This document shows, piece by piece, positions 19,040 through 60,436 of a stretch of 64,000 nucleotides of DNA. The position numbers and the translations under genes are program-made. Numbering within the stretch: the first letter of the stretch is position 1; each line of letters begins with the position of its first letter. The notes under the pieces are model-generated. The model was not told the origin of the DNA. It did not search any database and saw only the letters and a list, made by a program, of their open reading frames with translations. The DNA is from Kosakonia sacchari (GTDB taxonomy: Bacteria > Pseudomonadota > Gammaproteobacteria > Enterobacterales > Enterobacteriaceae): contig FOAY01000004.1 in the NCBI GenBank assembly GCA_900109485.1, forward strand, positions 62,001-126,000, given 5' to 3'.

Positions 19040-20545
19040 ATGGAAACCAAAGATCTGATTGTGATAGGCGGGGGCATCAACGGTGCCGGCATCGCGGCAG
19101 ACGCCGCAGGGCGTGGTTTATCCGTGCTGATGCTGGAGGCGCAGGATCTGGCCTGCGCGACATCCAGCAACAGCTCCAAACTGATTCACGGTGGCTTGCG
19201 CTACCTTGAACACTACGAATTCCGCCTGGTGAGCGAAGCGCTTGCCGAGCGTGAAGTGCTGCTGAAAATGGCGCCGCATATCGCTTTCCCGATGCGTTTT
19301 CGTTTGCCGCATCGCCCGCATCTGCGCCCGGCGTGGATGATCCGTATTGGTCTGTTTATGTACGACCACCTTGGGAAACGCACCAGCCTGCCGGCCTCAG
19401 CCGGTTTGCGTTTTGGCTCAGAATCGGTGCTGAAACCGGAAATCGTGCGCGGTTTCGAATATTCCGACTGCTGGGTGGATGATGCGCGTCTGGTACTGGC
19501 GAATGCGCAAATGGTTGAGCGTAAAGGCGGCAAAGTACTGACGCGTACCCGCGCCACCAGCGCGCGCCGCGAAAATGGTCTGTGGATTGTTGAAGCGGAA
19601 GATATCGATACCGGAGAAAAATATAGCTGGCAGGCGCGCGGTCTGGTGAACGCCACCGGTCCGTGGGTCAAACAGTTCTTCGACGACGGTATGCATCTGC
19701 CTTCACCATACGGCATTCGCCTGATCAAAGGCAGCCATATTGTGGTGCCGCGCGTACATTCGCAGAAGCAGGCCTATATTCTGCAAAACGAAGACAAACG
19801 TATTGTCTTTGTTATTCCGTGGATGGATGAGTTCTCCATTATTGGTACCACCGATGTGGAGTATAAAGGCGATCCGAAACACGTTGAGATCGATGAAAAC
19901 GAGATCAACTACCTGCTGAAAGTCTATAACGCGCACTTTAAAAAACAGCTCACACGCGACGATATCGCCTGGACTTACTCCGGCGTGCGCCCGCTGTGCG
20001 ACGACGAATCCGATTCGCCGCAGGCCATTACCCGCGACTATACGCTGGATATTCACGATGAGAACGGCCAGGCGCCGCTGCTGTCGGTGTTTGGCGGCAA
20101 GCTGACCACCTACCGCAAACTTGCCGAGCATGCGCTGGAAAAACTGACGCCTTACTACAAAGGCATCGGCCCGGCGTGGACAAAAACTTGCGTGCTGCCA
20201 GGCGGCGATATCAGCGGCGATCGCGACGACTACGCGGCGAAACTGCGCCGTCGCTACCCGTTTATCAGCGAATCGCTGGCGCGCCATTTTGCCCGCACCT
20301 ACGGCAGCAACAGTGAACTGCTGTTGGCAAACGCCACCCGCATTGAAGATTTGGGAGAACACTTCGGTCACGAGCTGTATGAAGCCGAACTGCGTTACCT
20401 GGTCGAACATGAATGGGCACGCCGCCTTGATGATGTGATCTGGCGTCGTACGAAGCTGGGAATGTGGCTGAACGCCGAAGAGCAATCCCGCGTGGCGCAG
20501 TGGTTAACGCGTCATAACAAAGCGGAATTATCGCTGGCGTCGTAA
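19040..20545 (+). CDS. glpD: Aerobic glycerol-3-phosphate dehydrogenase GlpD
   Basis: A 501-residue FAD-dependent, membrane-associated enzyme that oxidises sn-glycerol-3-phosphate to dihydroxyacetone phosphate and passes electrons to quinone. The N-terminal Rossmann motif is VIGGGINGAGIAADAAGRG (~8-26). Further family segments are KLIHGGLRYLE, GTTDVEYKGDP and VFGGKLTTYRKLAEHA. The ATG at 19040 gives the homologous start METKDL; the longer in-frame start at 19025 overlaps the operator. It works with the ugp uptake system at 42398-46625. Confidence 0.97.
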   Translation: METKDLIVIGGGINGAGIAADAAGRGLSVLMLEAQDLACATSSNSSKLIHGGLRYLEHYEFRLVSEALAEREVLLKMAPHIAFPMRFRLPHRPHLRPAWMIRIGLFMYDHLGKRTSLPASAGLRFGSESVLKPEIVRGFEYSDCWVDDARLVLANAQMVERKGGKVLTRTRATSARRENGLWIVEAEDIDTGEKYSWQARGLVNATGPWVKQFFDDGMHLPSPYGIRLIKGSHIVVPRVHSQKQAYILQNEDKRIVFVIPWMDEFSIIGTTDVEYKGDPKHVEIDENEINYLLKVYNAHFKKQLTRDDIAWTYSGVRPLCDDESDSPQAITRDYTLDIHDENGQAPLLSVFGGKLTTYRKLAEHALEKLTPYYKGIGPAWTKTCVLPGGDISGDRDDYAAKLRRRYPFISESLARHFARTYGSNSELLLANATRIEDLGEHFGHELYEAELRYLVEHEWARRLDDVIWRRTKLGMWLNAEEQSRVAQWLTRHNKAELSLAS

Positions 20546-20551
20546 TAGTTG

Positions 20552-20790
20552 TGCCGGATGGCGGCTACGCCTTATCCGGCCTACAGATTGGTATTTGTAG
20601 GCCCGGTAAGCAAAGCGCCACCGGGCAATAAACGCCCCGCCGAAGCAAAATGCCGGATGGCGGCTGCGCCTCATCCGGCCTACAGATTGGTATTTGTAGG
20701 CCCGGTAAGCAAAGCGCCACCGGGCAATAAACGCCCCGCCGAAGCAAAATGCCGGATGGCGGCTGCGCCTTATCCGGCCTACAGATTGGT
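20552..20790. repeat. BIME: 99-bp tandem repeat, about 2.4 copies, between glpD and glgP
   Basis: Units starting TGCCGGATGGCGGCT occur at 20552, 20651 and 20750, spaced exactly 99 bp. The first two full copies differ at only two positions seen by eye (ctacgccttat versus ctgcgcctcat). Each holds a REP pair, TTATCCGGCCTACA and TGTAGGCCCGGTAAGC. The third copy is partial and runs up to the glgP stop. Open frames through it on both strands are artefacts of the repeat. Confidence 0.9.
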
Positions 20791-20794
20791 GTGA

Positions 20795-24695
<3,901 letters not shown>

Positions 24696-46739: not shown

Positions 46740-46860
46740 CCAAGCGTCAGGGAAATGTCGTTAAGATGATGATCAGGTGAAGGAAAAATGGCACTGGCGG
46801 AATGGGAAAAGAGCCCCCAGCCAGGCCGGGAACCCCTTCAGCGGCGGCCCACATTCATTA

Positions 46861-47379
46861 TCAGAAACGGCTTTTTTTCAGCGCCAGCAGATACAACATA
46901 TTTTTTATGATCACGGCGCTGATCATGAAAAGCCCCATCAACGTAAACATCTGAAGCAGGTTCAGGGGCAACACCAGCCTGCAACCGATGGCGACGCCGA
47001 GAGCAGAATCAGCCTGATCGAGAAAGATAAACGCACATTTATGCCGTGATGGCAGCGTTCCCGGCGCGATGCGCAAATACCTTTTGAGCGCAGAGTTAGG
47101 CAGCTCCGCCAGCATATACCCTAACCCTGTCGCCATTCCCACCTGCAGGCTGATGGCTGTATCGCCCAACACGCTGTTAAGGCACAGCGGCGCAACCAGC
47201 GAACTGACAGCGGGCACGAAGAGAAAACCGCGCCAGGTTTTATTGCGCCCAAATCCACGTTCATACACCGGAACGGCCAGCCCCGGCAGAATATTGCGCG
47301 TAACAATCACCATATGCAGGCATCCGGCAATCACAATCGGCAGCAGCAACAACCATAGCCGGGGTAGCGAATCAACCAT
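46861..47379 (-). CDS. CDP-archaeol synthase-like (CarS/PF01864-type) CTP transferase
   Basis: A 172-residue integral membrane protein. It carries CarS-like signatures: FGRNKTWRGF (residues ~43-52), AELPNSALKRYLRI (~91-104) and FLDQADSALG (~119-128), with acidic residues Asp121 and Asp124. CarS proteins transfer CMP from CTP to a phospholipid precursor, giving a CDP-activated lipid. The start at 47379 overlaps the upstream stop by eight bases (ATGGTTGA). It is last in the ten-gene operon and probably makes the CDP-lipid substrate for the preceding gene product. Family by motif: good; substrate unknown. Confidence 0.75.
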   Translation of the reverse strand: MVDSLPRLWLLLLPIVIAGCLHMVIVTRNILPGLAVPVYERGFGRNKTWRGFLFVPAVSSLVAPLCLNSVLGDTAISLQVGMATGLGYMLAELPNSALKRYLRIAPGTLPSRHKCAFIFLDQADSALGVAIGCRLVLPLNLLQMFTLMGLFMISAVIIKNMLYLLALKKSRF

Positions 47380-47989
47380 CCACGCCCCCCAGATGCAGCA
47401 GACCGAAAAGCGCGACACCGCCGAAGCACAAACCAACGATCGCTTTGAGTGAAGAGAATTTGAAAAACGGGCGATCGAGGATCATGGCGAAACTGAAGAG
47501 CGCCAGCGCCAGGCTCAGCAGCAGTGCGCTGATGACGTCGGAAACAAGCAGAGTGAGGACTTTCCAGCCGCCCAGAATAAACAGGCTCCAGAACACGGGC
47601 ATTCCCCGATAGGCCAGCGCGCGGTTATGGGTAATATTGCCGGATTCATTAAAGCGCGACAGACGGATGCTCCCGCAAACGATCATCAGCATGCTGAACA
47701 GCGACCAGCCACCGCGATAGCCGCTCAGGTAAAACAGCAGCGCCGGGGCGATTAAATAGAGCAGCATGTCGCAAAAACCATCAAGATAGCGGCCAAACGC
47801 GCGTTCGCAGCCAAAATAGCGGGCCACTTTGCCATCCAGCGCGTCCGCCAGCATCGCCAGAAAAAGCAGGCTCATACTCAGCCAGGCGTGCCCGGAAAGC
47901 GCAGCATACAGGGCGCATAGCGTGATACCTGCGCCAGTCAGCGTGACATAATCCGGCAGTGAGAGACGAACAAGGAACAACGGCTTCAT
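47372..47989 (-). CDS. CDP-alcohol phosphatidyltransferase
   Basis: A 205-residue membrane protein with about six helices and the complete family signature D-x2-D-G-x2-A-R-x8-G-x3-D-x3-D at Asp49, Asp52-Gly53, Ala56-Arg57, Gly66, Asp70 and Asp74. These enzymes displace CMP from a CDP-alcohol with a second alcohol to form a phosphodiester. The start at 47989 shares one base with the upstream stop (TGATG). It resembles the phosphatidylserine/archaetidylserine synthase branch more than PgsA by eye, but substrates cannot be assigned. It should act on the product of the CarS-like enzyme that follows. Confidence 0.88.
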   Translation of the reverse strand: MKPLFLVRLSLPDYVTLTGAGITLCALYAALSGHAWLSMSLLFLAMLADALDGKVARYFGCERAFGRYLDGFCDMLLYLIAPALLFYLSGYRGGWSLFSMLMIVCGSIRLSRFNESGNITHNRALAYRGMPVFWSLFILGGWKVLTLLVSDVISALLLSLALALFSFAMILDRPFFKFSSLKAIVGLCFGGVALFGLLHLGGVDG

Positions 47990-49575
47990 CACGGTGCTCC
48001 CTGCAATAACGGCGTCAGTTTTCCCTGGACGCGCATTTTGCGCAGGCAACCGCGATCCACCCGGCTGTGGTGTCGCGGGTCCATGGGGAAGTGCGGCGCA
48101 TGGTAAAACCGAATATTTTCGCCAGGCAGCAACGCCTTCGCCAGCGTGGCGGCGGCCTGATAACTTTGCGGGTTTTGCAGCACCACCGCGATTTCACCTT
48201 CTGCGCCCTGTATCAGCGCGCTTAAGCCGACGCCGGGTAAATCGTTAAGCATTTTTTCAACGGTGAAAGGAGAAATGCGCAAACCGGTTCGGCTTCGCAC
48301 CTCATCTTTTATCCTGCCCGTTAGCCAGATGCGTCCGCTGGCGTCAAGAAAGCCGCTGTCGCCGGTGCTGTGCCAGAGCCGCCCTTCGCGATCGCGGATT
48401 TTATGCTGGTAGTTCGCCTCCGGGTTATTGAGGTAGCGCTCCAGCACCTGCGGGCCGCTGACGATGATTTCCCCGATCTCCCCGTCAGGCACTGGCACGT
48501 TCTCCTGCGGCGAGGAAGGCGACGGGCAGCGGATGATAACGCGCGTCTCTTTTCCCGGCGCGCCGACAAGGTATCCCGGCTGCTGCTCCCACTGTTCCAG
48601 CAACGTCACCATGTCGATATAGCTTACCGGCTCCGCTTCCGTTGAGCCGTAGTTCACACCGCAGTGGGCAAAAGGAAAGTGACGCAGACAGGCAAGCAGC
48701 AGCGCTTTGTTAACCGGCGCGCCGCCAATCACCAGCCGTTGAACGGAGGGGAAAACGCAGCCCAGCTCGCGGGCGCACGCCAAAATCTGCGCGATCCACG
48801 CCGGTGAAGCGCTCAGCCGGGTCAGGCCGTAGCGATTAATGCGCAGCACAATTTGCGGGGCGTCGATAAGGCCGTCTTTTCCCGGCGGCGTCACGAGATG
48901 GCTGCAACCCGCGCCGTAGTGGCTGAACAACGTCAGTACCGGGAAAGAGCTCATGTCATTCTGCTGCATCTCCGGGAAGTAGTCGGCCAGCGCGCGGCTT
49001 TGCGCCAGCAGCGAACGGTGCGAACGGATAACACCTTTCGGCATACCGGTGGAGCCAGAGGTGAAGGTGATCAGGGCGGTATCGTCAGAATTCACCGGCG
49101 TGACGCGAAACTCAGCGCTGTCGTTTGATGTCTGGCTCTTGCCTGCCTCCGGCAGATACGCCATGCCGCGCCGTTTGCTGTCGACGCTAAAACGGCGGAT
49201 CCGCCACAGTTCCGGCAGCAGGAACCATCTCTTCGCCATTCCATCCGCCACCACCATTGCCGTCAGCCGCGCCTGCATCAGGCAGTGGCGAAGCTGTTTA
49301 ATGGTGAAGCCTTTTTCCAGCAGTACCGGAACAATACCGGCGCCGAGCATGGCGTAGAACAAGCGATAAAAATCGGGGCCGGGAGAAAGCAGTAACAGTA
49401 CGCGCGCGCCTTGCGTTAACCCGGCGTTTGCCATCCAGCGCTGAAATTCACCCGCCTGCGAAAATAACTGCCTGTAACTCACGGTAGCCGGGTTGTCATC
49501 AGCCAGCGCATAACGGATTGCGGGCAGTTCCGGCGAGTTGACCGCGTGAACGGCCAGGTATTCACAATAATTCAT
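47989..49575 (-). CDS. Acyl-adenylate-forming ligase (AMP-binding; fatty acyl-CoA ligase/OleC-like)
   Basis: A 528-residue ANL-superfamily enzyme. The P-loop TFTSGSTGMPKGVIRSH lies at about 170-186, the A5-type NYGSTEAEPVSY near 310, and STGDSGFLDASGRIWLTGRI near 445. It would activate a carboxylic acid with ATP. The C-terminal segment DPRHHSRVDRGCLRK resembles OleC-type ligases, but the usual catalytic lysine position appears to be Arg505, so the final step may differ. Start at 49575 overlaps the upstream stop by 14 bases. Substrate unknown; an acyl chain or hydroxy acid for the cluster product is an inference. Confidence 0.82.
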   Translation of the reverse strand: MNYCEYLAVHAVNSPELPAIRYALADDNPATVSYRQLFSQAGEFQRWMANAGLTQGARVLLLLSPGPDFYRLFYAMLGAGIVPVLLEKGFTIKQLRHCLMQARLTAMVVADGMAKRWFLLPELWRIRRFSVDSKRRGMAYLPEAGKSQTSNDSAEFRVTPVNSDDTALITFTSGSTGMPKGVIRSHRSLLAQSRALADYFPEMQQNDMSSFPVLTLFSHYGAGCSHLVTPPGKDGLIDAPQIVLRINRYGLTRLSASPAWIAQILACARELGCVFPSVQRLVIGGAPVNKALLLACLRHFPFAHCGVNYGSTEAEPVSYIDMVTLLEQWEQQPGYLVGAPGKETRVIIRCPSPSSPQENVPVPDGEIGEIIVSGPQVLERYLNNPEANYQHKIRDREGRLWHSTGDSGFLDASGRIWLTGRIKDEVRSRTGLRISPFTVEKMLNDLPGVGLSALIQGAEGEIAVVLQNPQSYQAAATLAKALLPGENIRFYHAPHFPMDPRHHSRVDRGCLRKMRVQGKLTPLLQGAP

Positions 49576-50617
49576 CCACAATATCCCTGTGAAAAAGTCC
49601 GTAATGGTGAAGCGTTCTGTTCGGGCTACAACATGCCCGTAGCGCCGTCTGCGTCGTCGGCCCAACCCGGTTCAGCAGCGCGCTGCCGAGATGGGTGTAG
49701 CCCGAACCGAAGCCGGTGAGAAAATGGCGGATCAACATGGCGTACAGCGGCGAGCGCCGATATGGCGAAGCGATCATGATGGTCTTAAAGATCCCGGTCT
49801 GGCGCTCCGGCAGCGCCAGATTGAACAGCAGACCGGCAATGTCGCCCTGCGGGCCGAAGGCAATGCAGGAGGCTGGCGCGTTACAGAACGGTTGAATCGT
49901 CTGCGCGTTAAAATGCCAGTCGAACAACGCTTCGCTGCAAGGCGTCCAGCCGACGTTGTTACTGAATGCATGCGTTACGACGTGCCACAGCGCGTGCTTG
50001 TGAGCTTCCCATAATGCGGGTGTCAGCGCTTGCAGGGTAAAGTCTTCGCTGCGCCAGCGGCCTGTCGTCTGCGTGGGAAGTTCCAGCCTCAGCGCGGTTG
50101 CAGCATCATCAAAAATGGACAAATACCCAGCCAGCTGGCTAAAGCCCAACTGCGCCAGAATCTGTTGATACCACGGAGGATTAAACGGCTCGCCGGGAAA
50201 AGGCGGGCACGATGGTGTATCGAGCCGCAGCCTGAATTTGCCCAGCGTGGAGAAATGGATCGGCCCGACAAGCCGCGTCGCGCCCTGCGCACGCGCCCAA
50301 CGCGCCAGCGCAGCGAACAGCCGTTGACTGGGCACCAGAGCGTTGATGGTTTCCCAATAACCGAACTGCACAACGGTTTCCCCGGTCGTTAATCGCGTGG
50401 CGAACCCGGCCAGCCGCGCTTCGCCGGGAATATAACCGCACCACGCCGTTCCCTGGCGGAACCAGGGATTAAGCGCGCTGAATTGCCGCGCCAGCGCCTT
50501 GCTGTCTTCGCCCGGCCACCAGCGGGAATCTGCGTAAACGTGATGAGGTATCGCCAAAAAGTCGCTGTCCAGCGTATCGCCCGGCGTCCATTGCTGCTCA
50601 ATCATCGGCTTAATCAT
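49562..50617 (-). CDS. GNAT-like acyltransferase (putative)
   Basis: A 351-residue protein with features of the larger GNAT-like proteins seen in biosynthetic clusters: a GATRLVGPIHFSTLGKFRLR segment, then PFNPPWYQQILAQLGFSQLAGY, and a C-terminal GLLFNLALPERQTGIFKTIM with SPLYAMLIRHFLTGFG. The ATG at 50617 overlaps the upstream stop by eight bases (ATGATTAA); another ATG lies 12 bases downstream. It would transfer an acyl group from a thioester, perhaps one made by the downstream ligase. The family call is moderate and the function is not established. Confidence 0.6.
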   Translation of the reverse strand: MIKPMIEQQWTPGDTLDSDFLAIPHHVYADSRWWPGEDSKALARQFSALNPWFRQGTAWCGYIPGEARLAGFATRLTTGETVVQFGYWETINALVPSQRLFAALARWARAQGATRLVGPIHFSTLGKFRLRLDTPSCPPFPGEPFNPPWYQQILAQLGFSQLAGYLSIFDDAATALRLELPTQTTGRWRSEDFTLQALTPALWEAHKHALWHVVTHAFSNNVGWTPCSEALFDWHFNAQTIQPFCNAPASCIAFGPQGDIAGLLFNLALPERQTGIFKTIMIASPYRRSPLYAMLIRHFLTGFGSGYTHLGSALLNRVGPTTQTALRACCSPNRTLHHYGLFHRDIVDELL

Positions 50618-53309
50618 GCGCGGGCTCCATCGGTTTAAACAGCCGTGCGATGCTGCCGCTGGTGCCGTCCATGACGATGGTTTCGCCATCCTGCAACCGT
50701 TGGGTGACTTTTGGTACGCCAACAATGGCAGGGATCCCCATCTCTCTGGCCACAATGGCGGAGTGAGAGAGCATCGAGCCGCGCTCAACAATCAGCCCGC
50801 TCAGCCCAGGAAACAGCGGCGCCCAGCCGGGATCGGTACGCACGGTGCAGAGGATTTTTCCGCTCAGGTCGTCGGCATTCTCCGGGGAAAACACCACTCT
50901 GACTTTTGCCTGCACCTTGCCGGGATAACACCCCGTGCCCTTCAGCTCGGCCTCATCGGTGGTCACACGTTTTTCCGCATAGGGGTAACGGCAGGACTGT
51001 TGCTGAAACAACGTTTGGGTGATGAAAAAGTGGTGCGCGGGCTCTTCTTGCTCGCGGTAACTTTCATATTCCGCGCGGCGTTGTTCAATCAGCGGGCCTA
51101 AGCAGGTCTGTATCGCCGTGCCTTCTTGCGCCTGATAAATTTCCTCGCGGGTGAGCCAAAAAATATCGCGCTGGCTGGCAATCACACCCTCCAGCGCCAG
51201 TTGCTGCCCAAGCTGCAGGTAAATATCGCGGTACAACGCAAATAACCGGGTGCGGGTGAAACGCATGGTTTCACGATTGCGGATCGCTTTGCGCAGCGTT
51301 TTAAGGTGGCGCTTAAACCGTGCCAGCGTCGATTTGCCGCCCTGTTCCAGCAAATAGTTAAAGATTTGCCCGGCGGCCTGCGCGTTGCCTTTCGCCTTTG
51401 TCGCAGTGTTTTCGCTATTCAGGTAATTACGCAGGACGGTAAACAGCCAGGCGGGATCTTGTCGCAAGGTCATGCTCTCCAGCTTCAGCTCACCGGCAGT
51501 GCGATCACCGTAAAGATTAATGTAATCAATGCACTGCTGATAGAACGCAGGATCGAGAGCCTTTAATCGCGGCAGCAGATGCGCACCGCTGTCGTGGAGA
51601 ATCTTTTCCATTAACGCCGGGCGCGCACGCGCGTACTGGCTCATCGCCAGCAGCTTTCTCGTCGGTTCAGTGCTAATCAGCACAGTATCATCCGTAAGCA
51701 GTTCCGCACTGATACGTGCGCTTTCCTCAGGCCAGAATTTCTTCAGCACCCGCGCTACCTTGCCGTTATAGCGGGCAACATAGAAATCATTAATGATCGG
51801 CGCAGTCCAGCGCTCCAGCACCTCCCGATCGAGGTATTTCAGCAGCCGGATAAGTTCGTAAGGCGATTTGGTGTGCAGGTTATCGCGATCGACCTGCGCC
51901 TGCGCCTGCTCATAACGTTTGAGAAATTGGCGGATTCGGGGAGCCAGCGTGAGTTGCGCATACTGCACGCGCACCGCCATGCGCAGCATCGCCGGCGCAC
52001 CGACGATTTTTTCGCGCAGAGAGAGTTGCTTGTCCTGCACAATATCGACGGGATCTTCCAGCCCCATCATCGCTTCCATGTCGCTTTTATTCATATTGAA
52101 CAGCGGCAACAGCAGCAACGCGCGATACCAGTTCTGAATGTTGTAATAAATCCGCCCTCTGACGAGGCTGAGCATGTTATCGGTGATGGGTTTCCGGGCG
52201 TTGCTCTCTTTGGCTGAGCAACCGACCAGCCGCAATGTCTGCTCGTAAACCGTCGCATAGCCAGCGCGTGCGAATGAGAACGTTAACGGCGTGGTAATGC
52301 CGCAGTAGGATTCCTGGATATTGGCGTTATCGCAGATCAGCGCGTCAGCAGGATCGATACTCTCTTTGGGCAGATGGGTGATCGGGCGAGTTTGCAGCAG
52401 GTAGAGCTGGTTATCCCTGAACGTCCATTCAATATCCTGCGGGCAGCGCTTCTGCTGCGCAATGCGCGCACCGGTATCTCTCAGAGCCAGAAGCTGCTGC
52501 GTGGTTAACGACGCAGCATCCGCTTGCTCGTCATCGAGCGTGATTTCGGTCGTTCCGCTGCCGCTCTGCTGGTCGAAAACGATAGCCGAGGTTTTATGGC
52601 CGATGTGGTGGGTAATCTCGTCGCCATGCAGCGGCACGCTGAATTCATCGGTCTCGCACTGACCGGAAACCACGCCTTCACCGGTTCCCCACGCGGCAGA
52701 AATCAACATCGTCCGGCGTGAGCCGCTGACGGGATGCGCCGTGAACAACACGCCGGAAACCTCACCGGCCACCATTTGCTGAATAATGACCGCGCAGCGG
52801 ATGCCACTCAGCGGCATGCGCTTTTGCAGACGATAGGCGATGGCGCGCGAACTCCATGCCGAGGCGATCACGCGCCGCAGAGCATGGCCCAGTTGCTGCT
52901 GACCGCGCTGAAAGAGGAAGCTGTCCATCTGCCCGGCGAACGAGGCGCTGCCTGAGTCTTCGTCGCTGCATGACGAGCGAACCGCCCAGAAGGGTTCTGC
53001 ATCCAGCGACGCCAGCGCCTCTGTCAATTCATCCGGCAAAACGAGTTGCTCAATGCGCGTGCGAAGTGGCGCCGCCAGCATTTCTATCTGCGCCAGCGGC
53101 GTATCTACCGGCAAAGCCGACAGGTGAGCGAGCCGTTGCTTCAGGGTTTCATCGCTACACAGCAGCGCTGCCACCATGTTCGCCGGAACAATCCACCAGG
53201 CCGGGACCGGGTAATCGTTCGCGGTCAGCCACAGCAAATTGCTGGCTTTTCCGCCCAGCAGATTTTCATTGAGCCGCGCTGCTTCAGCGGAAGAATAGAT
53301 AAACTCCAT
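50610..53309 (-). CDS. PEP-synthase/rifampin phosphotransferase-like dikinase
   Basis: An 899-residue three-domain protein. An N-terminal PPDK ATP-grasp domain (~1-315) shows GGKASNL, WAVRSSCSDEDSGSASFAGQ and DIEWTFRDNQLYLLQTRPI. A middle domain (~325-790) is unlike the PEP/pyruvate domain of PpsA. The C-terminal swivelling domain has GSMLSHSAIVAREMGIPAIVG with phosphohistidine His849. Placing the His domain last matches rifampin phosphotransferase (about 865 residues) rather than PpsA. Such enzymes use ATP to phosphorylate a substrate, giving AMP and phosphate. Here it probably phosphorylates a biosynthetic intermediate; drug inactivation is the main alternative. Confidence 0.85.
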   Translation of the reverse strand: MEFIYSSAEAARLNENLLGGKASNLLWLTANDYPVPAWWIVPANMVAALLCSDETLKQRLAHLSALPVDTPLAQIEMLAAPLRTRIEQLVLPDELTEALASLDAEPFWAVRSSCSDEDSGSASFAGQMDSFLFQRGQQQLGHALRRVIASAWSSRAIAYRLQKRMPLSGIRCAVIIQQMVAGEVSGVLFTAHPVSGSRRTMLISAAWGTGEGVVSGQCETDEFSVPLHGDEITHHIGHKTSAIVFDQQSGSGTTEITLDDEQADAASLTTQQLLALRDTGARIAQQKRCPQDIEWTFRDNQLYLLQTRPITHLPKESIDPADALICDNANIQESYCGITTPLTFSFARAGYATVYEQTLRLVGCSAKESNARKPITDNMLSLVRGRIYYNIQNWYRALLLLPLFNMNKSDMEAMMGLEDPVDIVQDKQLSLREKIVGAPAMLRMAVRVQYAQLTLAPRIRQFLKRYEQAQAQVDRDNLHTKSPYELIRLLKYLDREVLERWTAPIINDFYVARYNGKVARVLKKFWPEESARISAELLTDDTVLISTEPTRKLLAMSQYARARPALMEKILHDSGAHLLPRLKALDPAFYQQCIDYINLYGDRTAGELKLESMTLRQDPAWLFTVLRNYLNSENTATKAKGNAQAAGQIFNYLLEQGGKSTLARFKRHLKTLRKAIRNRETMRFTRTRLFALYRDIYLQLGQQLALEGVIASQRDIFWLTREEIYQAQEGTAIQTCLGPLIEQRRAEYESYREQEEPAHHFFITQTLFQQQSCRYPYAEKRVTTDEAELKGTGCYPGKVQAKVRVVFSPENADDLSGKILCTVRTDPGWAPLFPGLSGLIVERGSMLSHSAIVAREMGIPAIVGVPKVTQRLQDGETIVMDGTSGSIARLFKPMEPAHD

Positions 53310-53342
53310 AATAATTCCTTTTATTATTCAGTCTGTTGATAT

Positions 53343-55970
53343 TCAGGCGTCGTGCCGGGTTAAACGGATCAGATGTCCCCAGCATGCCCATAAAGGAAGA
53401 AACCACGGCTGCGGGCTGACGTGATGGAGCATGAGATAAAATGAGAGTCGACGGACGCCGTAATCACGCAGCGCCAGGCAGTAACCGCGATACCATTGAG
53501 CGGCATCAACCGGCTCGCCCGTCAGGGTTTCCAGTTGCTGGCGGTGGAATTCCACATGGCTTAGCATCTCCTGCTTGCTGACCGTCACGGGCAAAGTGCA
53601 GGTCAATAATTCGGCCAGATCGCGTTGCGGAATATGCAGCGTCGCCAGCTCCCAGTCCCAGCAGCACAAGCGCAAATCGTCCTCGCGCAGCGCGATATTG
53701 CGCGGATTAAAGTCGTTATGAACCAGCGTGCGCGGCATTGATTCCATCTCCCGCCAGCTTTCCGCGCTGGTATCGAGAAAAGCCAGCCACTCATGCAGCA
53801 GCTCAGCAGAAAACAGTGCCCCATGCTCGCGATGGATAAATTCCGCCGTTTCCTGCCACAGCGGGATCATGCTGCTGATGGCTTGCGCATCAGGGATGAC
53901 AAGGTGGTGAAACGCGCGGGTTAGCGCCGTTTGCTGGCGATACCAGTGGGCGTGAAGTTGGGCAATCCCCGCCAGCGCGGCATTAATATGTTCAGCCTGC
54001 CAGCGAACGCCCTGGGATAAGCTGTTCAGCAGCAACGCGTTCTGCAATCGCTCCTCAATGATGATGCTGTGCGTGGCATCCAGATAAAGGCCGTATAGCT
54101 GTGGGCTATGGCGGGTAAAAGCAGGAACGGTTTGCTGAATAATCTGCGTTTCCCTTTCGCGCGCCTGGCTAAATTCCAGTAGCGGCAGCAGACGTTGCAG
54201 ATGTTGCTCGATACGCGGGTTGCAGCCAGCGGCGACGGTGCGAAGCAGACGGCTAATCGCTTCGTTTTGCGGCTTATTTTTCAGTACCACGTCGATCTTT
54301 GCCCCATCGTCGCGCTGGAGTTGATAGGCAAAAATCCCCATCGGCAGCACATCTTCGTCGCTGCAGTTTGCCGTCAGAATGCTGTCCTGGTTGCCCTGCC
54401 AGGGGACGGCACGGATTTCGACGGGTGGGCGGAAGCCCCAGGCGGGCGTGTAGCAGGCCTGCTGGAAACAGCGCTGTAACGGGTCGCGGTGACTGCCGCC
54501 GGTCGTTCTCTTCCCGCGCTGGCGGCCCAGCGTTTCGTGCGATCGTGCGAATTCATCGCTGGCCAGCGCGCTGAGGGTGGAGATATCCAGCGCCAGGCAA
54601 AAGCCCGCAATGATTTCTGCCAGCCGCGCGCGTCCCTGCTCGCCACGACAGCCCAGCATCTCCAGACACTCCGCCTGATCCGGCAGCCCGGTGCCGCCAC
54701 CAACCGTGCCGATCACCAGCGCGGGCAGCGTAATGCTGCAATAGACGCTATTGTCTGGCATCAGGCGCATCTGCAACTGCGCCAGCGACGATTCGTGGCT
54801 ACAGGCGATATCCTGCCCCAGCGCAGTGAACATGGCCGCAATAACGTTGGCCGCATTGATGTTCAGGCCGGTCATTCCCGCCGCGACTGCGCCTTCACTG
54901 ACAATATGGAACGCGTCAACCAACTGCGCGGGCGCGATGCGCAGCAACGTCCGGCAGGCGGTTTCGGTCAGGCGGGCTTCGGCAATCACCTGCGTGCCGC
55001 GGCCCTGCGCAAAGGTCGCCCACGAGGCTTTTTTATCGCTGGAGAGGTTGCCGTCAATGATAAAGTGCCGGATCGCCAGCAGCGATGGGACGTGGTGCTG
55101 TATCCACTGGCAGGCCTGCCAGGTGCAGGTTGTCGTCATATTCTGACCGGCGGCGTCTGCCGTTTGATAAATAAACGCCAGATGTACTGCATTGCCGATA
55201 ATCTTCGGCGTTATTTCGATGAGCCGCGCATAGCGGGAGTGTCGGGAAATAACTTCGCCGATTTCCCGGCTATGATCTTCAATCCACGCGCAGAACGCGA
55301 GGCAGTCGCGCACGGTGTCGAACGCAAAACGCGGCACCCGCATCATCCGCTGCCCCATCACGTAGGTTGCAACGCCTCCGCTTTGGGTGATAGCGCTGGC
55401 GCCACGGGAAACGGAGGCCACCAGTGCCCCTTCTGTTGTGGCCATCGGCGCATAGAATAAGCCGCTGGCATGTTGCCCGTTAATGTTAAGCGGCCCGGCG
55501 ATACCCACCGGGACTTCAACCGAACCGATAAATCCTTCGAGATTCTTTTTTAATTGCCCGGCCTGCAAGCCGGTAGTGGAAACCCGCTCCAGCGCGTGCC
55601 CGGTGTGCTGGCGCAGCCAGCACAACCGCTTTTGCCGCTCTTTTTCACTCCATGCATAGAGATGCCTTTTCGGCAAGGCGGGTTGTTGCGGGGTACGCAT
55701 TTCCTCAGCGGGCTGGCAGAGTTTCAGTTGCCAGTAGCAGCGCTTATTTTCCTGTGCCGAAAAACAGGTGAATGTTGCCTGCCAGTGACCATTCGGCAAT
55801 GGCTCTTTATGTAATAGCGTCAGCGCCGGCAAATGAATAATTTGCCCATTCAGCGATAACGATACCCCTTGCGGTGAATGGCAGGCATGACATTGCTGTT
55901 CAGTGGCAAACTGAAAAGAGAATTCCGCTGGCCGCAGGGAAACAAGCCTGGCAGTGATATTATTATTCAT
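53343..55970 (-). CDS. HMG-CoA reductase (class I) fused to APH/choline-kinase-like kinase
   Basis: An 875-residue fusion. Residues ~1-95 are a beta-rich N-terminal segment I cannot assign. Residues ~125-495 are a class I HMG-CoA reductase with all four catalytic residues: Glu180 (MATTEGALVAS), Lys313 (SDKKASW), Asp387 (ALGQDIA) and His478 (FARSHETLG). DAAGQNMTT and GTVGGGTGLP are also conserved. Residues ~510-875 are a protein-kinase-like fold: a probable N-lobe lysine in VVLKNKP (Lys564), catalytic loop LVHNDFNPRNIAL (Asp753, Asn758), and WDWE with Asp772. The reductase should form mevalonate with NADPH, and the kinase may phosphorylate it or a later intermediate. HMG-CoA reductase is unusual in Enterobacteriaceae. 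Confidence 0.9.
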   Translation of the reverse strand: MNNNITARLVSLRPAEFSFQFATEQQCHACHSPQGVSLSLNGQIIHLPALTLLHKEPLPNGHWQATFTCFSAQENKRCYWQLKLCQPAEEMRTPQQPALPKRHLYAWSEKERQKRLCWLRQHTGHALERVSTTGLQAGQLKKNLEGFIGSVEVPVGIAGPLNINGQHASGLFYAPMATTEGALVASVSRGASAITQSGGVATYVMGQRMMRVPRFAFDTVRDCLAFCAWIEDHSREIGEVISRHSRYARLIEITPKIIGNAVHLAFIYQTADAAGQNMTTTCTWQACQWIQHHVPSLLAIRHFIIDGNLSSDKKASWATFAQGRGTQVIAEARLTETACRTLLRIAPAQLVDAFHIVSEGAVAAGMTGLNINAANVIAAMFTALGQDIACSHESSLAQLQMRLMPDNSVYCSITLPALVIGTVGGGTGLPDQAECLEMLGCRGEQGRARLAEIIAGFCLALDISTLSALASDEFARSHETLGRQRGKRTTGGSHRDPLQRCFQQACYTPAWGFRPPVEIRAVPWQGNQDSILTANCSDEDVLPMGIFAYQLQRDDGAKIDVVLKNKPQNEAISRLLRTVAAGCNPRIEQHLQRLLPLLEFSQARERETQIIQQTVPAFTRHSPQLYGLYLDATHSIIIEERLQNALLLNSLSQGVRWQAEHINAALAGIAQLHAHWYRQQTALTRAFHHLVIPDAQAISSMIPLWQETAEFIHREHGALFSAELLHEWLAFLDTSAESWREMESMPRTLVHNDFNPRNIALREDDLRLCCWDWELATLHIPQRDLAELLTCTLPVTVSKQEMLSHVEFHRQQLETLTGEPVDAAQWYRGYCLALRDYGVRRLSFYLMLHHVSPQPWFLPLWACWGHLIRLTRHDA

Positions 55971-55996
55971 AGGTGGCGAATAACCTTAATGACCTG

Positions 55997-56917
55997 TTAA
56001 GAAAAACAAATAGAAAAAATACACAGCAAATAACCGATAAACGCCGATAAACCTACCGCGAGTTCATTTCTCTTTCTGTTTGATTGATCGGGCACGGAGA
56101 GAAAATGCAGTAATTGGCCGAGGGTCACCACAACGGAAGCGATATTAATTACGTAGAACCACATCGGTGCGGCTCCGCGAATATGAGTAATAATTGCATA
56201 TTGCGTTAACGCCATGGCAACCAGCAGACAGATAATAAATAAAACCGCCAGCGGTCGGCCCAGCAATTGTGAATAGGTCGTGACTTCCGGGCGATCTTCA
56301 TCCGGGCCTTTACATTTACGCGTAATTTCAAAATTCAGACCGGAGAAAAATGACAGCAGCATCAATAACTGAATCGGGCGATTCAGGGTGATTTCCGGGA
56401 AGGAGAGCGTTGCCAGCCACCAGATGATAAAAGGCATGATCAGCGTATGGGAAACGGCATACACGAAAAAGTGCTTCTTGAGCCATTCAGGAACGAAGAA
56501 CTCCCGCGTCATCAGCAGCGTCCACAGCAGCAGCAATCCCCAACTGGCCAGCATATTGCTCAATCCCGGTGCAAGTAACGCCATGCCTGCCAGTTGCAGG
56601 AAAAGACAGCCCGCGCCGATAAACTTCAAATGTCGCAGGGTAATCAACCCACGTTGTAATACTCTTTCCGGGTGATGAATGCAGTCATCCTGATAATCCT
56701 TATGTTCATCCAGCACCCGTAGCAATAAAAAGAATGAGACAGAGAGTATGCTGCCAATAATAATATGCAACCCACTCATATTGACATCAGGCGCTAAAGC
56801 AACGGTCATCGAAAGAAAATAAATAATCACAAACAGCGGTGCATTTGATAACGGAAAACGTTCTGCGACCCACAGCATAACGCGTGAGAAGAGTGATGAA
56901 TTTACACCATAAGCCAT
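55997..56917 (-). CDS. UbiA-family membrane prenyltransferase
   Basis: A 306-residue protein with about eight or nine membrane helices. The first Asp-rich motif is LRVLDEHKDYQDDCIHHPER (Asp70, Asp74, Asp78), followed by VLQRGLITL. The second is NFEITRKCKGPDEDRPEVTT (Asp206, Asp208). These bind Mg2+-prenyl diphosphate in UbiA enzymes. The acceptor is unknown. The family includes aromatic prenyltransferases and the archaeal enzyme that makes digeranylgeranylglyceryl phosphate. It lies between the permease and the HMG-CoA reductase fusion, with gaps of 20 and 26 bp. Confidence 0.83.
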   Translation of the reverse strand: MAYGVNSSLFSRVMLWVAERFPLSNAPLFVIIYFLSMTVALAPDVNMSGLHIIIGSILSVSFFLLLRVLDEHKDYQDDCIHHPERVLQRGLITLRHLKFIGAGCLFLQLAGMALLAPGLSNMLASWGLLLLWTLLMTREFFVPEWLKKHFFVYAVSHTLIMPFIIWWLATLSFPEITLNRPIQLLMLLSFFSGLNFEITRKCKGPDEDRPEVTTYSQLLGRPLAVLFIICLLVAMALTQYAIITHIRGAAPMWFYVINIASVVVTLGQLLHFLSVPDQSNRKRNELAVGLSAFIGYLLCIFSICFS

Positions 56918-56937
56918 AAAATATACCTCGCCAGAAA

Positions 56938-58062
56938 TTAGCTACTTTTCTTATTAAAAAAGAAGGTCAACGCCATAAAGAGTAGAGTGAGCAGTAAAAG
57001 GAATAATGCTTCCAACCATAAATCAGACAACGAACTGCCCTTCAACATAATTCCCCGCATCAATCTCAGGAAGAATGTGGTGGGCAACATATTGCCGAAT
57101 GCTTTGGCCCATTCCGGCATCCCCTGAAACGGAAACATAAATCCGCTGATCAGTACCGAAGGCAGAAAATAAAAGAAGGTCAGCTGCATTGACTGAAGCT
57201 GTGTGCGGGCAAAAACGGACAGGAAAATACCGATTGCCGTGCTGGCAGAGATAAACAGCAGGATGGTGCTCATCAATGCCCCGTAACTGCCCAGCATCGG
57301 AACATGAAAAATATAGAGGCTAATCAACATGATGATAAAAGACTGGGCAATACTGATCAGAATATAGGGCGTCACCTTGCCAAGAATAAGCTCCAGCGAA
57401 GTCATCGGCGTTGCCCGCAGCGTTTCCATCGTACCGTTCTCTTTTTCCCGCACGATGGCGAGGCCGCTCATTAGCACCAGCGTCATGGTGATGACGATGC
57501 CAAACAGGCCGGGAACGGTGTTGTATTGCGTGATGCTTTCCGGGTTATAAACGCGCTGAATAACAATGTTGATGGGGTTGCTTTGCTGCGCGGAACGCGC
57601 CGGTAAGGTTTGCCGCAGGATCTGTTCCGGCAGGTGCTGCGTGGCAGCAAGCGCACTCATCACCGCCGAGGGATCGGTCGCATCGGCCTGGAGCAGAAAT
57701 TCGCTCTCCTCGCCTCTGACAAGGCGACGGCCAAAATCAGCAGGAATGGAAATAACGAATTTCACTTTACCCTGCTTCAGGGCATCGGTGGCCTGCTGTT
57801 CGCTGCTGTACGCCTGCGAGAAAGCAAAATAGCCGGTGTTGGTCAGCGCGCCGATCGCGTTGCGGCTGTAGGGGCTCTGATCATAATCGACGACGGCGGC
57901 AGGCAGATTGTGCGCATCGGTATTGATGGCATAACCAAACATGAAAACCTGCATTAAGGGAATAATCACGATAAGACCAATGCTGAGTTGGTCGTAGCGA
58001 AGTTCAGAGAACTCTTTGGCGACAATGCCCCACCAGCGGCTGAAGAAGGATGAAAGAATCAC
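56938..58062 (-). CDS. ABC-2 type transporter permease
   Basis: A 374-residue permease of the YhhJ/YbhS type: one N-terminal helix, a large extracytoplasmic domain (~45-175), then five helices. The core segment LVLMSGLAIVREKENGTMETL is typical, as is GFMFPFQGMPEWAKAFGNMLP near the C-terminus. It overlaps the upstream ATPase stop by four bases. Together with the ATPase and the lipoprotein fusion protein it should form an export pump, probably for the product of this cluster. Confidence 0.9.
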   Translation of the reverse strand: MILSSFFSRWWGIVAKEFSELRYDQLSIGLIVIIPLMQVFMFGYAINTDAHNLPAAVVDYDQSPYSRNAIGALTNTGYFAFSQAYSSEQQATDALKQGKVKFVISIPADFGRRLVRGEESEFLLQADATDPSAVMSALAATQHLPEQILRQTLPARSAQQSNPINIVIQRVYNPESITQYNTVPGLFGIVITMTLVLMSGLAIVREKENGTMETLRATPMTSLELILGKVTPYILISIAQSFIIMLISLYIFHVPMLGSYGALMSTILLFISASTAIGIFLSVFARTQLQSMQLTFFYFLPSVLISGFMFPFQGMPEWAKAFGNMLPTTFFLRLMRGIMLKGSSLSDLWLEALFLLLLTLLFMALTFFFNKKSS

Positions 58063-58976
58063 GATCTTTCCTCTGGCGCGGCCTGCCTGAGCAGATGAGA
58101 TAAAATGTCTTCCAGACCGGTCGCCGCAGGCTGTCGCGGATACTCTGCCGCCAGCGTGCGCAGAGTCTGTTCCAGCGCCGCGTTATCTGAGCCGGTGATA
58201 TGTAAAACATTGCCCAGCAGCGTAGTGTAGTCGACGCCCGGCGCGTGCTGTAGCGCGGATTCGAGCTTACTGAGATTGTTGCCGCGGACCTGCCAGGTAA
58301 AAAGCTTTTGTTCGGCGATAATCGCGCTGACCTCGCCTGCGGCCAGCAGCGTGCCCCACGCGATATACGCCAGTTGGTGACAGCGCTCGGCTTCGTCCAT
58401 GTAATGGGTGCTGACAAGGATCGTTACCCCCTGCTGTGCAAGCTGATGCAGGATCTGCCAGAACTCCCGCCGGGCGTTCGGATCAACGCCCGCCGTCGGT
58501 TCATCCAGCAACAGCAGCCTGGGCTGGTGCAGTAACGCGGCGGCAAGCGCGAGACGCTGCTTCCAGCCACCGGAAAGCCCACCCGCACGCTGCTGCTGTC
58601 GCGCCGTCAGATTGAGTTGCTCCATCATGGCCGCCACCCTTCTTTGCGGCGTCGGCAAACCATACAGCCGGGCAATCAGCAGCAGGTTTTCTCGAATGGT
58701 CAGGTTTTCCCACAGCGAGAAGCGCTGCGCCATATAACCCGTCAGGCGTTTTATCTCCGCCTGTTGCGTAAAAAGATCGAAACCGAAGCAGCGGCCGCTG
58801 CCGGAATCCGGTGTAATCAGGCCGCAGAGCATGCGCAGCGTGGTGGTTTTTCCGCTGCCATTGGGTCCCAGGAAGCCATATATCTGGCCCTCGTTTATCG
58901 CGAGCGAAAGGTTTTTTACGACATGCTGCCCGGAAAAGGATTTATTAAGCTGATGAACCTCGATGGCCGCGCTCAT
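58059..58976 (-). CDS. ABC exporter ATP-binding protein
   Basis: A 305-residue ABC ATPase of the drug/lipid-export (DRA/CcmA-like) group. Walker A is GPNGSGKTTTLRMLCGL (~36-52), the signature is GGLSGGWKQRLALAAALL, Walker B is LLLLDEPTAGVDP, and STHYMDEAERC holds the switch His. A single ATPase domain implies it works as a dimer. Its start overlaps the stop of the membrane-fusion gene by four bases and its stop overlaps the permease start by four. Confidence 0.93.
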   Translation of the reverse strand: MSAAIEVHQLNKSFSGQHVVKNLSLAINEGQIYGFLGPNGSGKTTTLRMLCGLITPDSGSGRCFGFDLFTQQAEIKRLTGYMAQRFSLWENLTIRENLLLIARLYGLPTPQRRVAAMMEQLNLTARQQQRAGGLSGGWKQRLALAAALLHQPRLLLLDEPTAGVDPNARREFWQILHQLAQQGVTILVSTHYMDEAERCHQLAYIAWGTLLAAGEVSAIIAEQKLFTWQVRGNNLSKLESALQHAPGVDYTTLLGNVLHITGSDNAALEQTLRTLAAEYPRQPAATGLEDILSHLLRQAAPEERS

Positions 58977-59920
58977 AATTTCACCTCAACAGGCAACCCT
59001 GGCGGTAATTTCTCGGCGGCAAATTGTGAGTCTTCAGGTTGTGCCTCAACCAGAAAAGTCATTTTTTCCCGACGTTCATTGCTGTAAATAATGGGTGGTG
59101 TATATTCTGCCGCCGGTGATATATAGATTACTCTGGCCGCAAACGTCGGAACATTGGCATTAATAATTTCTATACGCTGCCCATACTTAATATGTGCAAG
59201 TTGGGCAACGGAAATAAAAAACCGCACCTTTATATTTCCCGGCGGTAAAAGCGCAATGACCGGGTTGCCTGCCGGAACCCATTCGCCGGGACGATAATAA
59301 ATGTCGGCAACACGACCTCGAGTCAACGCAGTGCGCTGCGTATTACTCAATATCCATCTATTTTTTTCCAGGCTGGCCTGCGCCATGGCCACCCTTGCCG
59401 CCTGGGCATCGTAGCGATCCTGCCTTGCCGGAAGCGCATTCGCCGCAATCCGTTTTTTTATTTCATCCACGGCGGATTTTTTTTGCTGTAAATCGCTGAC
59501 GGCTTTTTCATACTCAAATTCAGCGATGGCTTTACGCTGATACTGTAATTGTTCGCGTCTCGCTTTCGATTGCGCAAGCGAGAGCGCCGCCGCGGCCTGA
59601 TTCAGCTGTGAATGTAAGACATCAATTTCTGCATCACGCAGGCCGCTTTGCATGTCTTTAAGCAGCGCATTCTCGCTCGCAAGCTGCGATAGCGCCTGCT
59701 GGTAGTCCTGCCGCTCTTTGGCGTTATCCAGTGAAAACAGCAGAGCGCTCGCTTCTACCTGCTGGCCTTTTGTGACGGCTACCGTCTGTAATATACCCGA
59801 CGTGGATGAGGCGTAATGCACGTAGTCAGCCTCAATATAGCCATTAATCGTTGGGTTACCGGAATCACATCCGCCAAGAAAAAATAACAGTAAAAAAGAT
59901 ACTATTGCTGCTGGCTTCAT
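58973..59920 (-). CDS. HlyD/YbhG-type membrane-fusion lipoprotein
   Basis: A 315-residue periplasmic adaptor with a lipoprotein signal sequence, lipobox LGGC at residues ~15-18. A biotinyl-lipoyl-like start (GYIEADYVHYASSTSGILQT) is followed by a long coiled-coil region (~70-190, rich in Gln, Ala, Lys and Glu) and a beta-barrel part. It should bridge the ABC pump to an outer-membrane channel such as TolC; no outer-membrane component is encoded nearby. It is the first gene of the operon, preceded by an AT-rich region with an inverted repeat. Confidence 0.88.
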   Translation of the reverse strand: MKPAAIVSFLLLFFLGGCDSGNPTINGYIEADYVHYASSTSGILQTVAVTKGQQVEASALLFSLDNAKERQDYQQALSQLASENALLKDMQSGLRDAEIDVLHSQLNQAAAALSLAQSKARREQLQYQRKAIAEFEYEKAVSDLQQKKSAVDEIKKRIAANALPARQDRYDAQAARVAMAQASLEKNRWILSNTQRTALTRGRVADIYYRPGEWVPAGNPVIALLPPGNIKVRFFISVAQLAHIKYGQRIEIINANVPTFAARVIYISPAAEYTPPIIYSNERREKMTFLVEAQPEDSQFAAEKLPPGLPVEVKL

Positions 59921-60390
59921 GCCTCAAAATCCCTTTTTGATTGAACGACTATCAGAGGCATTCGCTAATTTTTTATAAAAATAGATTAGCGATGCAAATA
60001 CTGATCATGCCGTCATAACGGCCAGCCGATAAAATTTAACTCACGGCGAATATAATCCCGAACAAGAATAGATATCGGTAATCTGATATCGGAAAATTCA
60101 CACTGAAGATGTTCTGCTGCCTCGCAATAAATCCTTTTTTACTATAATGATGGCGTATAAATTAAAGCGTATTTTTTTAAACTATATCCAGATACCCGCC
60201 AGAATAAAAGCGCTCACTCCCTCCTCATCAGGTGGTTGAATCCATTATTTATGACTTTCCGATTTTTCTTTGTGCTGAGGGCAGAGATTTGTCGTTTATT
60301 CATATTACGTTAATATTAACGCAGCGTAATTATGCGTTAATTATTAAGAGGTACCTTGCAAAGGAAAATATCGGACACAGGGATAAAAAA
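59921..60390. promoter_or_regulatory. AT-rich upstream region of the inserted cluster, with candidate operators
   Basis: No gene is supported in this 470-bp stretch, which is visibly AT-rich. CGCTAAT (59963-59969) and ATTAGCG (59985-59991) form an exact inverted repeat around a T/A-rich centre, 43-71 bases upstream of the first gene. Direct repeats GATATCGG sit at 60071 and 60085. A perfect 14-base palindrome CGTTAATATTAACG lies at 60308-60321. These are candidate regulator sites and promoter elements. A 63-codon open frame at 60232 runs into the livF terminator and is not called. Confidence 0.45.
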
Positions 60391-60392
60391 AA

Positions 60393-60414
60393 TGCCGATA
60401 CTCACGTATCGGCA
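60393..60414 (-). terminator. Terminator of the liv operon after livF
   Basis: On the minus strand TGCCGATAC-GTGA-GTATCGGCA is followed by a T run (TTTTTTT). It lies about 20 bases beyond the livF stop and separates liv transcription from the cluster. Confidence 0.88.
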
Positions 60415-60436
60415 TCGGTATGACTACCTGAACATG

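Follow-up and report, generated by a model that had tools for sequence, protein, structure and literature searches.

The ten genes between livF and ugpB in the 64,000-nucleotide stretch of Kosakonia sacchari DNA analyzed here (the window) contain a conserved core of seven that recurs widely among bacteria. Judged from sequence, this core probably makes an unusual ether lipid for export, possibly resembling those of archaea. At slightly less than even confidence, we favor a horizontally spread pathway whose exported product is a polar lipid, most probably of the ether glycerolipid type.

The livF/ugpB gap holds ten co-directional genes on the minus strand (59920–46861, Table 1), and livF directly adjoins ugpB in the four sister genomes examined, confirming the insertion described in the original prediction. 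Scans for promoters and terminators gave no more than shuffled sequence does (9 found versus 9.1 expected and 19 found versus 17.9 expected), and we therefore claim no promoter for the block. A phage origin was rejected, as a phage search with the kinase half gave no match and viral contigs gave a single 17-residue match and nothing else. A plasmid origin was likewise rejected: 72,556 plasmid records yielded one near-full HMGR-APH protein (Streptomyces) and one UbiA relative (Roseinatronobacter).

Table 1. The insertion and its ten genes, in window coordinates.
Feature	Position	Strand	Evidence
Insertion relative to sister genome G847	46793..60424		flank alignment
HlyD-type periplasmic adaptor, pump subunit 1	58973..59920	-	Pfam HlyD_3, E 4e-12
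ABC ATPase, pump subunit 2	58059..58976	-	Pfam ABC_tran, E 8e-34
ABC-2 permease, pump subunit 3, GTG start	56938..58062	-	Pfam ABC2_membrane_3, E 6e-52
UbiA-family transferase (proposed ether-forming alkyl/prenyl transferase)	55997..56917	-	NCBIfam PRK05951, E 2e-53, below cut-off
HMG-CoA-reductase (HMGR)-like thioester reductase fused to APH/choline-kinase-like kinase	53343..55970	-	Pfam HMG-CoA_red, E 5e-113; APH, E 9e-7
PEP-synthase-family phosphotransferase (PEPS; dikinase-like; proposed second phosphorylation)	50610..53309	-	Pfam PPDK_N and PEP-utilisers only
Tandem-GNAT acyltransferase	49562..50617	-	AlphaFold model and fold comparison
AMP-forming acyl ligase (PRK09274/OleC-like)	47989..49575	-	Pfam AMP-binding, E 6e-49; NCBIfam PRK09274, E 2e-114, below cut-off
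CDP-alcohol phosphotransferase, archaetidylserine/phosphatidylserine-synthase-like	47372..47989	-	Pfam, E 4e-13; TIGR04217, E 1e-21, below cut-off
CarS-like CTP transferase	46861..47379	-	NCBIfam PRK04032, E 3e-6, below cut-off

We took a census of the neighborhoods of the best 80 of 177 relatives, using loci in named genomes. The census also served to ask whether homologous clusters lack most of these genes: all seven core genes (UbiA, the HMGR-like/APH fusion, the dikinase-like protein, the tandem GNAT, the acyl ligase, the CDP-alcohol transferase, and the CarS-like protein) occur in 37 of the 80 loci, 36 of them with identical gene order, but at least one is missing from the DNA examined in the other 43. 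Contig ends explain some of the incomplete loci, and others are real variants or other contexts. The conserved unit comprises seven genes instead of the ten first supposed, the three-gene pump varying among relatives. Within the same best 80, the CDP-alcohol transferase is fused to the CarS-like protein in nine loci (this fusion also occurs in genomes G198, G219, and G712), and the ligase is fused once each to the CDP-alcohol transferase, to CarS, and to both. Two other candidate fusions were dropped, UbiA-PEPS because in locus L125 the two domains are encoded in separate reading frames and no such fusion appeared in the in-frame test, and CarS-PEPS because it reflects ORF overlap only. The kept order, the fusions, and the lipid-type exporters beside relatives bear out the claim that the genes belong together. 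The HMGR-APH gene is present in 12 of 12 Photorhabdus-genus genomes, and the cluster occupies differing sites in 5 of 15 genomes of the host genus (the window's own counted); horizontal spread is the best reading. Family membership, conservation, fusions, residue changes in the HMGR-like protein, and exchanges of parts can all be read from the sequences or models themselves.

The protein originally identified as an HMG-CoA reductase is probably not a true HMG-CoA reductase. It shares its family and catalytic residues with class I HMG-CoA reductase (human numbering: Glu559 in 72 of 74 proteins with 2 gaps; Lys691, Asp767, and His866 in 74 of 74), but differs from it in the fused kinase and in the HMG-carboxylate contacts, which are changed in all 74: Lys735 is present in none, and the Ser684 position is always Glu or Asp. 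Both residues contact the HMG part of bound statin (PMC9500038). A search of 7 genomes or records for HMG-CoA synthase (PF08540) gave no match, with the control positive in 4 of 14. Among 53 stand-alone HMGR homologues, an acidic residue replaces Ser684 in 30; within short flanks, UbiA/PEPS neighbors accompany only 6 of those 30, compared to 0 of the other 23 (Fisher p 0.03). Relatedness of the genomes and the shortness of the flanks make this association weak, and the acidic residue in stand-alone proteins counts against the ether-lipid scheme. In some relatives an ACP plus thioester reductase, likewise fused to the kinase, takes the HMGR slot (three proteins by Pfam, six loci by BLAST), and this variant carries a PlsC-type acyltransferase. 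Locus L150, whose HMGR slot is occupied by a reductase, is placed elsewhere in the kinase tree.

The label “dikinase” needs correction. ATP-grasp and phosphohistidine domains are present (Pfam PPDK_N and PEP-utilisers), and the His849 column is kept in 47 of 47 near-full-length copies; however, Pfam shows no C-terminal PEP/pyruvate-binding domain, nor any other additional domain at E≤0.1. A C-terminal PEP/pyruvate-binding TIM barrel is defining for PEP synthase. The best PDB matches, 5fbs and 5hv2, were deposited as PEP synthase, and we take them to be rifampin phosphotransferases. The NCBIfam equivalog PRK06241.2-4 (NF004883), “phosphoenolpyruvate synthase,” scores 1209.7 bits against a cut-off of 1063, PigC/RedH models also match, and the family holds ligases as well; the above-cut-off naming and the ligases count against a role as second kinase.

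Kinase content also varies among relatives. A thymidylate-kinase-like protein (weak Pfam matches, E 4e-10 and 1e-7) takes the dikinase position after HMGR-APH in 8 of 8 Actinomadura loci and on one Streptomyces plasmid; enzymes of this type convert monophosphates to diphosphates. UbiA and the dikinase were not seen in the Actinomadura loci, nor the thymidylate-kinase-like gene in five other Streptomyces loci (L109, L115, L121, L124, and L130), so actinobacterial HMGR-APH proteins may serve other products. Four variants lack APH, and there the ether-lipid scheme would need a different alcohol kinase. The candidate is a membrane protein found in the APH-less variant; in an alignment of three copies it carries a motif that, at a guess, resembles SEC59/VTE5-type kinases, and Pfam, NCBIfam, and PDB profile searches assigned it to no family.

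A profile of 14 UbiA relatives had DGGGP synthase (6m31, E 7e-4) as its sole PDB match. Because UbiA chemistry usually needs an allylic diphosphate, a donor with a saturated fatty chain is unlikely, and the starting acid would have to be of the 2-enoyl or isoprenoid kind. The cluster may itself produce the diphosphate that UbiA uses as donor, which leaves the “prenylated” product of the original prediction unproven. The first motif is kept (D70xxxD74 in 14 of 14), but the third reads E197xxR200K201 in all 14 instead of the Asp-rich motif that accompanies DxxxD in DGGGP synthase (PMC9385802).

The nearest folds to the AlphaFold model of the tandem GNAT are N-acyltransferases, and the nearest PDB entries to the acyl ligase are 4-coumarate:CoA ligases; both results count against the ether-lipid scheme. 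The CDP-alcohol transferase matches 7pow and 7b1k (E 2e-13) and keeps, in 13 of 13 sequences, all eight positions of DxxDGxxAR...GxxxDxxxD, the CDP-alcohol phosphotransferase motif. CarS family PF01864 scores above cut-off in two homologues (L125 and L141), and the window protein falls below the curated cut-off (PRK04032). PDB sequence searches with the GNAT, CarS, DUF3419, and unclassified membrane proteins gave no significant match.

Head-group enzymes appear to be exchangeable. Among the 52 loci with both HMGR and UbiA (from the best 80 of 177 relatives), 39 have CarS/CDP-alcohol transferase, 5 have a BtaA-like DUF3419 protein in its place, 8 have neither, and none has both, kinship being ignored in these counts (13 of the 39 are Photorhabdus). 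BtaA, which the window cluster lacks, performs only the first of two betaine-lipid steps, with diacylglycerol as substrate (PMC10685587). The product of DUF3419 loci need thus hold no phosphate, and the two kinases best fit the making of a diphosphate leaving group.

The adaptor and the ATPase of the pump have matches of 46% and 62%, respectively, in a Limnobaculum genome (G003). A high-scoring copy of the three-gene pump was found only in Limnobaculum, with weaker ABC/HlyD-like matches in L125. Of the 37 complete loci among the best 80 of 177 relatives, 19 carry MMPL and 12 carry LolA-like partners, which suggest outer-membrane delivery.

As the original prediction proposed, the set looks suited to making a lipid-like product that is activated and phosphorylated. 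The following scheme is inferred in full: the reactions and their sequence, the ether linkage, the head group, and a chain of either fatty or isoprenoid origin. The acyl ligase would turn an acid into an acyl thioester, which the HMGR-like domain would reduce to an alcohol; the fused APH kinase would make the alcohol phosphate, and the dikinase-like enzyme the diphosphate. UbiA would then alkylate a glycerol(-phosphate) backbone with this diphosphate to form an ether, like archaeal DGGGP synthase, and the tandem GNAT would add an acyl chain as the second chain. The CarS-like protein would convert the lipid phosphate and CTP to a CDP-activated lipid, the CDP-alcohol transferase would add a polar head, probably serine, and the ABC/HlyD pump would export the lipid. 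More generally, we tentatively propose, at less than even confidence, that several phyla share a modular ether-lipid route, distinct from the published routes found, in which a repurposed HMGR or another thioester reductase yields the alcohol, two kinases yield the diphosphate, UbiA alkylates glycerol, and swappable phospho-type (CarS plus CDP-alcohol transferase) or betaine-type (BtaA-like) heads precede export.

Instead of a cluster-made donor, UbiA might use a polyprenyl diphosphate of the host to prenylate an acceptor prepared by HMGR-APH and the dikinase-like enzyme, with CarS and the CDP-alcohol transferase adding the head. Such a prenylated phospholipid would accord with the UbiA matches to prenyltransferase models and DGGGP synthase, and HMGR, UbiA, CarS, and the CDP-alcohol enzyme together recall the archaeal isoprenoid-lipid pathway. 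It is nevertheless unlikely, since DUF3419-type loci would leave two phosphorylations without use, the third UbiA motif differs, and GGGP synthase (PcrB, PF01884), a component of the archaeal ether-phospholipid pathway, was found in 0 of 6 genomes (control positive in 7 of 14). That pathway shares UbiA-, CarS-, and archaetidylserine-synthase-like proteins with the cluster, which adds an acyl-thioester reductase, two kinases, an acyl ligase, and an acyltransferase. True mevalonate chemistry, with HMGR-APH supplying phosphomevalonate to the product or to an extra isoprenoid supply, is very improbable: family membership is clear and the catalytic residues are intact, but both substrate contacts are altered, HMG-CoA synthase was missing from the genomes searched, and a general thioester reductase replaces HMGR in relatives.

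The acidic residue at Ser684 would also suit an amine, and the GNAT fold is closest to N-acyltransferases, as expected if the reductase made an amino alcohol that the GNAT N-acylated before the kinase, CarS, and the CDP-alcohol transferase built a phospho-head, loosely as in sphingolipids. The conserved set lacks an amino-acid condensing enzyme, however, the thioester-reductase variant has a PlsC-type acyltransferase, and UbiA and the dikinase-like enzyme would be left unexplained, making an amino-lipid quite improbable. Compatible with any of these routes, the product could be a specialized (antibiotic-like or signaling) lipid and not a membrane lipid; the patchy distribution at different sites and the dedicated exporters favor this, whereas retention in all 12 Photorhabdus-genus genomes and the MMPL and LolA-like partners speak against it, and we regard it as somewhat unlikely.

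The gene set was not found described in the open-access literature, consistent with the prediction of an undescribed pathway. The preferred ether-lipid scheme shares acyl activation and reduction before ether-lipid formation with the Myxococcus elb/AGPS genes. The cluster is not the elb cluster, as judged from the domains described in PMC9131029: ElbD is a FAR-ACS-ACP-acyltransferase, an architecture absent from the ten window genes, and no UbiA, CarS, dikinase, or APH is among the genes described there. Plant phytol salvage by VTE5 and VTE6 likewise proceeds from alcohol to phosphate to diphosphate (PMC9515888), but with different enzyme families and no reductase. If the scheme is correct, the 12 Photorhabdus-genus genomes examined and many other, mostly gammaproteobacterial, lineages would make an overlooked lipid class, and many gammaproteobacterial genes annotated as HMG-CoA reductase would be misnamed. 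In plants, UbiA-type transfer follows VTE6 and the acceptor is aromatic; the chemistry proposed here would join bacterial acyl metabolism with archaeal-type ether-lipid enzymes, and would offer a genetic handle on the origin of bacterial ether lipids, which studies of lipid biomarkers and the lipid divide have yet to settle.

Relatives of the HMGR-APH fusion were sought with its kinase half, using an alignment of seven sequences that included the window's own; of the 177 relatives recovered in named genomes, the best 80 were analyzed as loci. We ran family profiles built from six clusters (five for the GNAT, two for each pump gene) over all 80 loci and counted a family as present if it scored above 40 bits. 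The seven core families (UbiA, HMGR-APH, the dikinase-like PEPS, tandem GNAT, acyl ligase, CDP-OH transferase and CarS-like protein) occur together in 37 of these best 80 loci: 13 from Photorhabdus, one from Limnobaculum and 23 others, which their titles place mostly in Pseudomonadales and marine Gammaproteobacteria. Gene order is identical in 36 of the 37, the exception being L125, from a Beijerinckiaceae MAG; among the remaining 43 loci, some stop at a contig edge and some represent different contexts. All 12 Photorhabdus genomes examined carry an HMGR-APH gene. Samples of the window's family, order and class gave a match to HMGR or APH in 3/198, 32/295 and 51/369 genomes, respectively, with most order- and class-level matches covering the HMGR part alone. 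In the assembly of Limnobaculum allomyrinae, UbiA, the ABC permease and PEPS are each broken across two frames.

Several core genes are also fused. CDP-OH and CarS share a single open frame in nine of the 80 loci, and this fusion is also present in genomes G198, G219 and G712; elsewhere the ligase is joined to CDP-OH (L091), CarS (L092), both (L125) or, with weak scores, UbiA (L105). The ligase of the G712 locus, where GNAT had no match, recalls OleB-OleC by its N-terminal part, as judged by eye.

Coordinates of features discussed in the text
Feature	Genome or record	Coordinates	Description
livF-ugpB interval	window	46793-60424	186 bp in its place in sister genome G847 (flank alignment)
Joined locus L072+L073	G712	19241-21778	ligase with extra N-terminal part, alpha/beta-hydrolase-like by eye
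L074	G515	11781-12998	kinase-half relative, APH only
L181	Roseinatronobacter plasmid NZ_CP121116.1	10208-18192	consecutive UbiA, PEP/pyruvate-binding, DUF3419, two hypothetical and AMP-binding genes
Second homologue	G853 (Photorhabdus)	C1:95019-96206	HMGR-only, 38% identity
Second homologue	G854 (Photorhabdus)	C35:11784-12965	HMGR-only, 38% identity

Within the genus, the HMGR-APH gene is carried by five of 15 genomes, counting the window's own. In G847, whose ugpB is 99% identical to the window's, livF adjoins ugpB, and the gap between aligned flanks measures 279 bp, 567 bp and 1038 bp in sisters G072, G841 and G851. The seven core genes of the four sisters that have them (G841, G842, G850 and G851) lie distant from ugpB, beside acetolactate-synthase-like and MFS-like genes (named by eye), and no match to the pump genes was found in these loci. 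The HMGR-APH copies of these sisters are 63–68% identical to the window's and lie at other sites, whereas ugpB, located in 11 sister genomes, is 94–99% identical there; the block has therefore relocated over evolutionary time. A collection of 20,395 E. coli records contained no near match.

The export partners vary. MMPL transporters accompany 19 and LolA-like proteins 12 of the 37 complete loci (families named by Pfam on L087), and a third neighbor family, beta-barrel-like by eye and matched by neither Pfam nor NCBIfam, occurs in 10 of 46 loci; in the window and in Limnobaculum, the ABC/HlyD pump stands in place of the MMPL and LolA-like partners.

Core parts are exchanged as well. BLAST searches with queries from two of six loci, assigned by title to Acidobacteria, Planctomycetes, Gemmatimonadetes, Propionivibrio and Vicinamibacteria, found an ACP-thioester reductase, a FAAL-type ligase and a PlsC-type acyltransferase in every locus; five also encode a divergent UbiA-like protein. 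CarS and PEPS profiles match five of the six loci, and in three Pfam places ACP, reductase and an APH/EcKL kinase within one protein. Another locus, L150, combines a reductase-APH fusion with UbiA, PEPS, GNAT, ligase and DUF3419. In a kinase-domain tree rooted on L074, which has no match to other cluster profiles in the 19 kb of sequence covering its APH-only gene, and drawn with 11 Photorhabdus loci omitted, L150 clusters with actinobacterial HMGR-APH proteins (support 0.995), apart from the thioester-reductase group (0.982), a placement that suggests two or more exchanges between reductase and HMGR. All eight Actinomadura loci hold a GH3 ligase, HMGR-APH, a thymidylate-kinase-like protein standing where the dikinase would be, DUF6182 and one unclassified protein, with no match to the UbiA or dikinase profiles; five other Streptomyces loci had none of these partners. 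This Actinomadura/Streptomyces neighborhood (L119, L110, L010) is perhaps a separate uncharacterized cluster.

DUF3419 was found in seven loci; an algal protein with this annotation has been assigned on homology to the betaine-lipid synthases (PMC10685587). Among 52 loci with HMGR and UbiA, 39 have only CarS/CDP-OH, five only DUF3419, none both and eight neither, seven of these eight being shorter than 12.4 kb. HMGR without APH stands alongside UbiA, PEPS and DUF3419 in four genomes (L168; L177/L178; L180; L167, whose UbiA is in its part L045). GNAT matches lie next in L167, L178 and L180, with one by eye in L168; ligases occur in L167, L168 and L178, and an unclassified membrane protein separates DUF3419 from GNAT in three of these variants. 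One Roseinatronobacter record was counted with an HMGR match, as a count without position.

The swapped parts exchange like chemistry for like: thioester reductase for HMGR, the thymidylate-kinase-like protein at the dikinase's place, and DUF3419 for the phospho-head pair. Since the product of DUF3419 loci need hold no phosphate, a leaving group would be the best use for the phosphate that the two kinases add. Diphosphates are substrates of UbiA enzymes, and the cluster UbiA profile, run against the PDB with a limit of E≤1, matched only DGGGP synthase (E 7e-4), which forms an ether to glycerol. Archaeal CarS favors its own ether lipid over phosphatidic acid (PMC9385802). Such a preference would explain why a CarS-like gene occurs in cells that have CdsA. 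From these observations we infer every reaction of a nine-step scheme, in which an acid would pass through thioester, alcohol, phosphate and diphosphate to a UbiA-made ether on glycerol, followed by acylation, CDP-lipid formation, head-group attachment and export. The scheme is weakest at three points: the donor, since UbiA chemistry normally requires an allylic diphosphate; UbiA motif 3, which is altered; and the dikinase-like enzyme, which is named PEP synthase by an NCBI model and belongs to a family that includes ligases. No description of the gene set was found in the open-access literature searched.

The cluster HMGR probably does not act on HMG-CoA. Compared with reference enzymes from Arabidopsis and archaea, the 74 cluster proteins examined retain the catalytic Lys, Asp and His throughout, as well as Asn755 (human numbering), and the catalytic Glu and Arg590 in 72 each, with two gaps in both cases. 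The Ser684 position is Glu in 53 and Asp in 21, and Lys735 is present in none. When a statin is bound to the Arabidopsis enzyme, the Lys735 equivalent is salt-bridged to the carboxylate on the statin's HMG part, and the Ser684 equivalent is a polar contact (PMC9500038). HMG-CoA synthase was found in none of seven genomes or records, the control being positive in four of 14. Among 53 stand-alone HMGR homologues of Gammaproteobacteria (L014–L067), 30 have Asp or Glu in the Ser684 position. Lys735 is present in just 11 of the 53, each of which also has Ser684; judged by these residues, many annotated HMG-CoA reductases may not use HMG-CoA.
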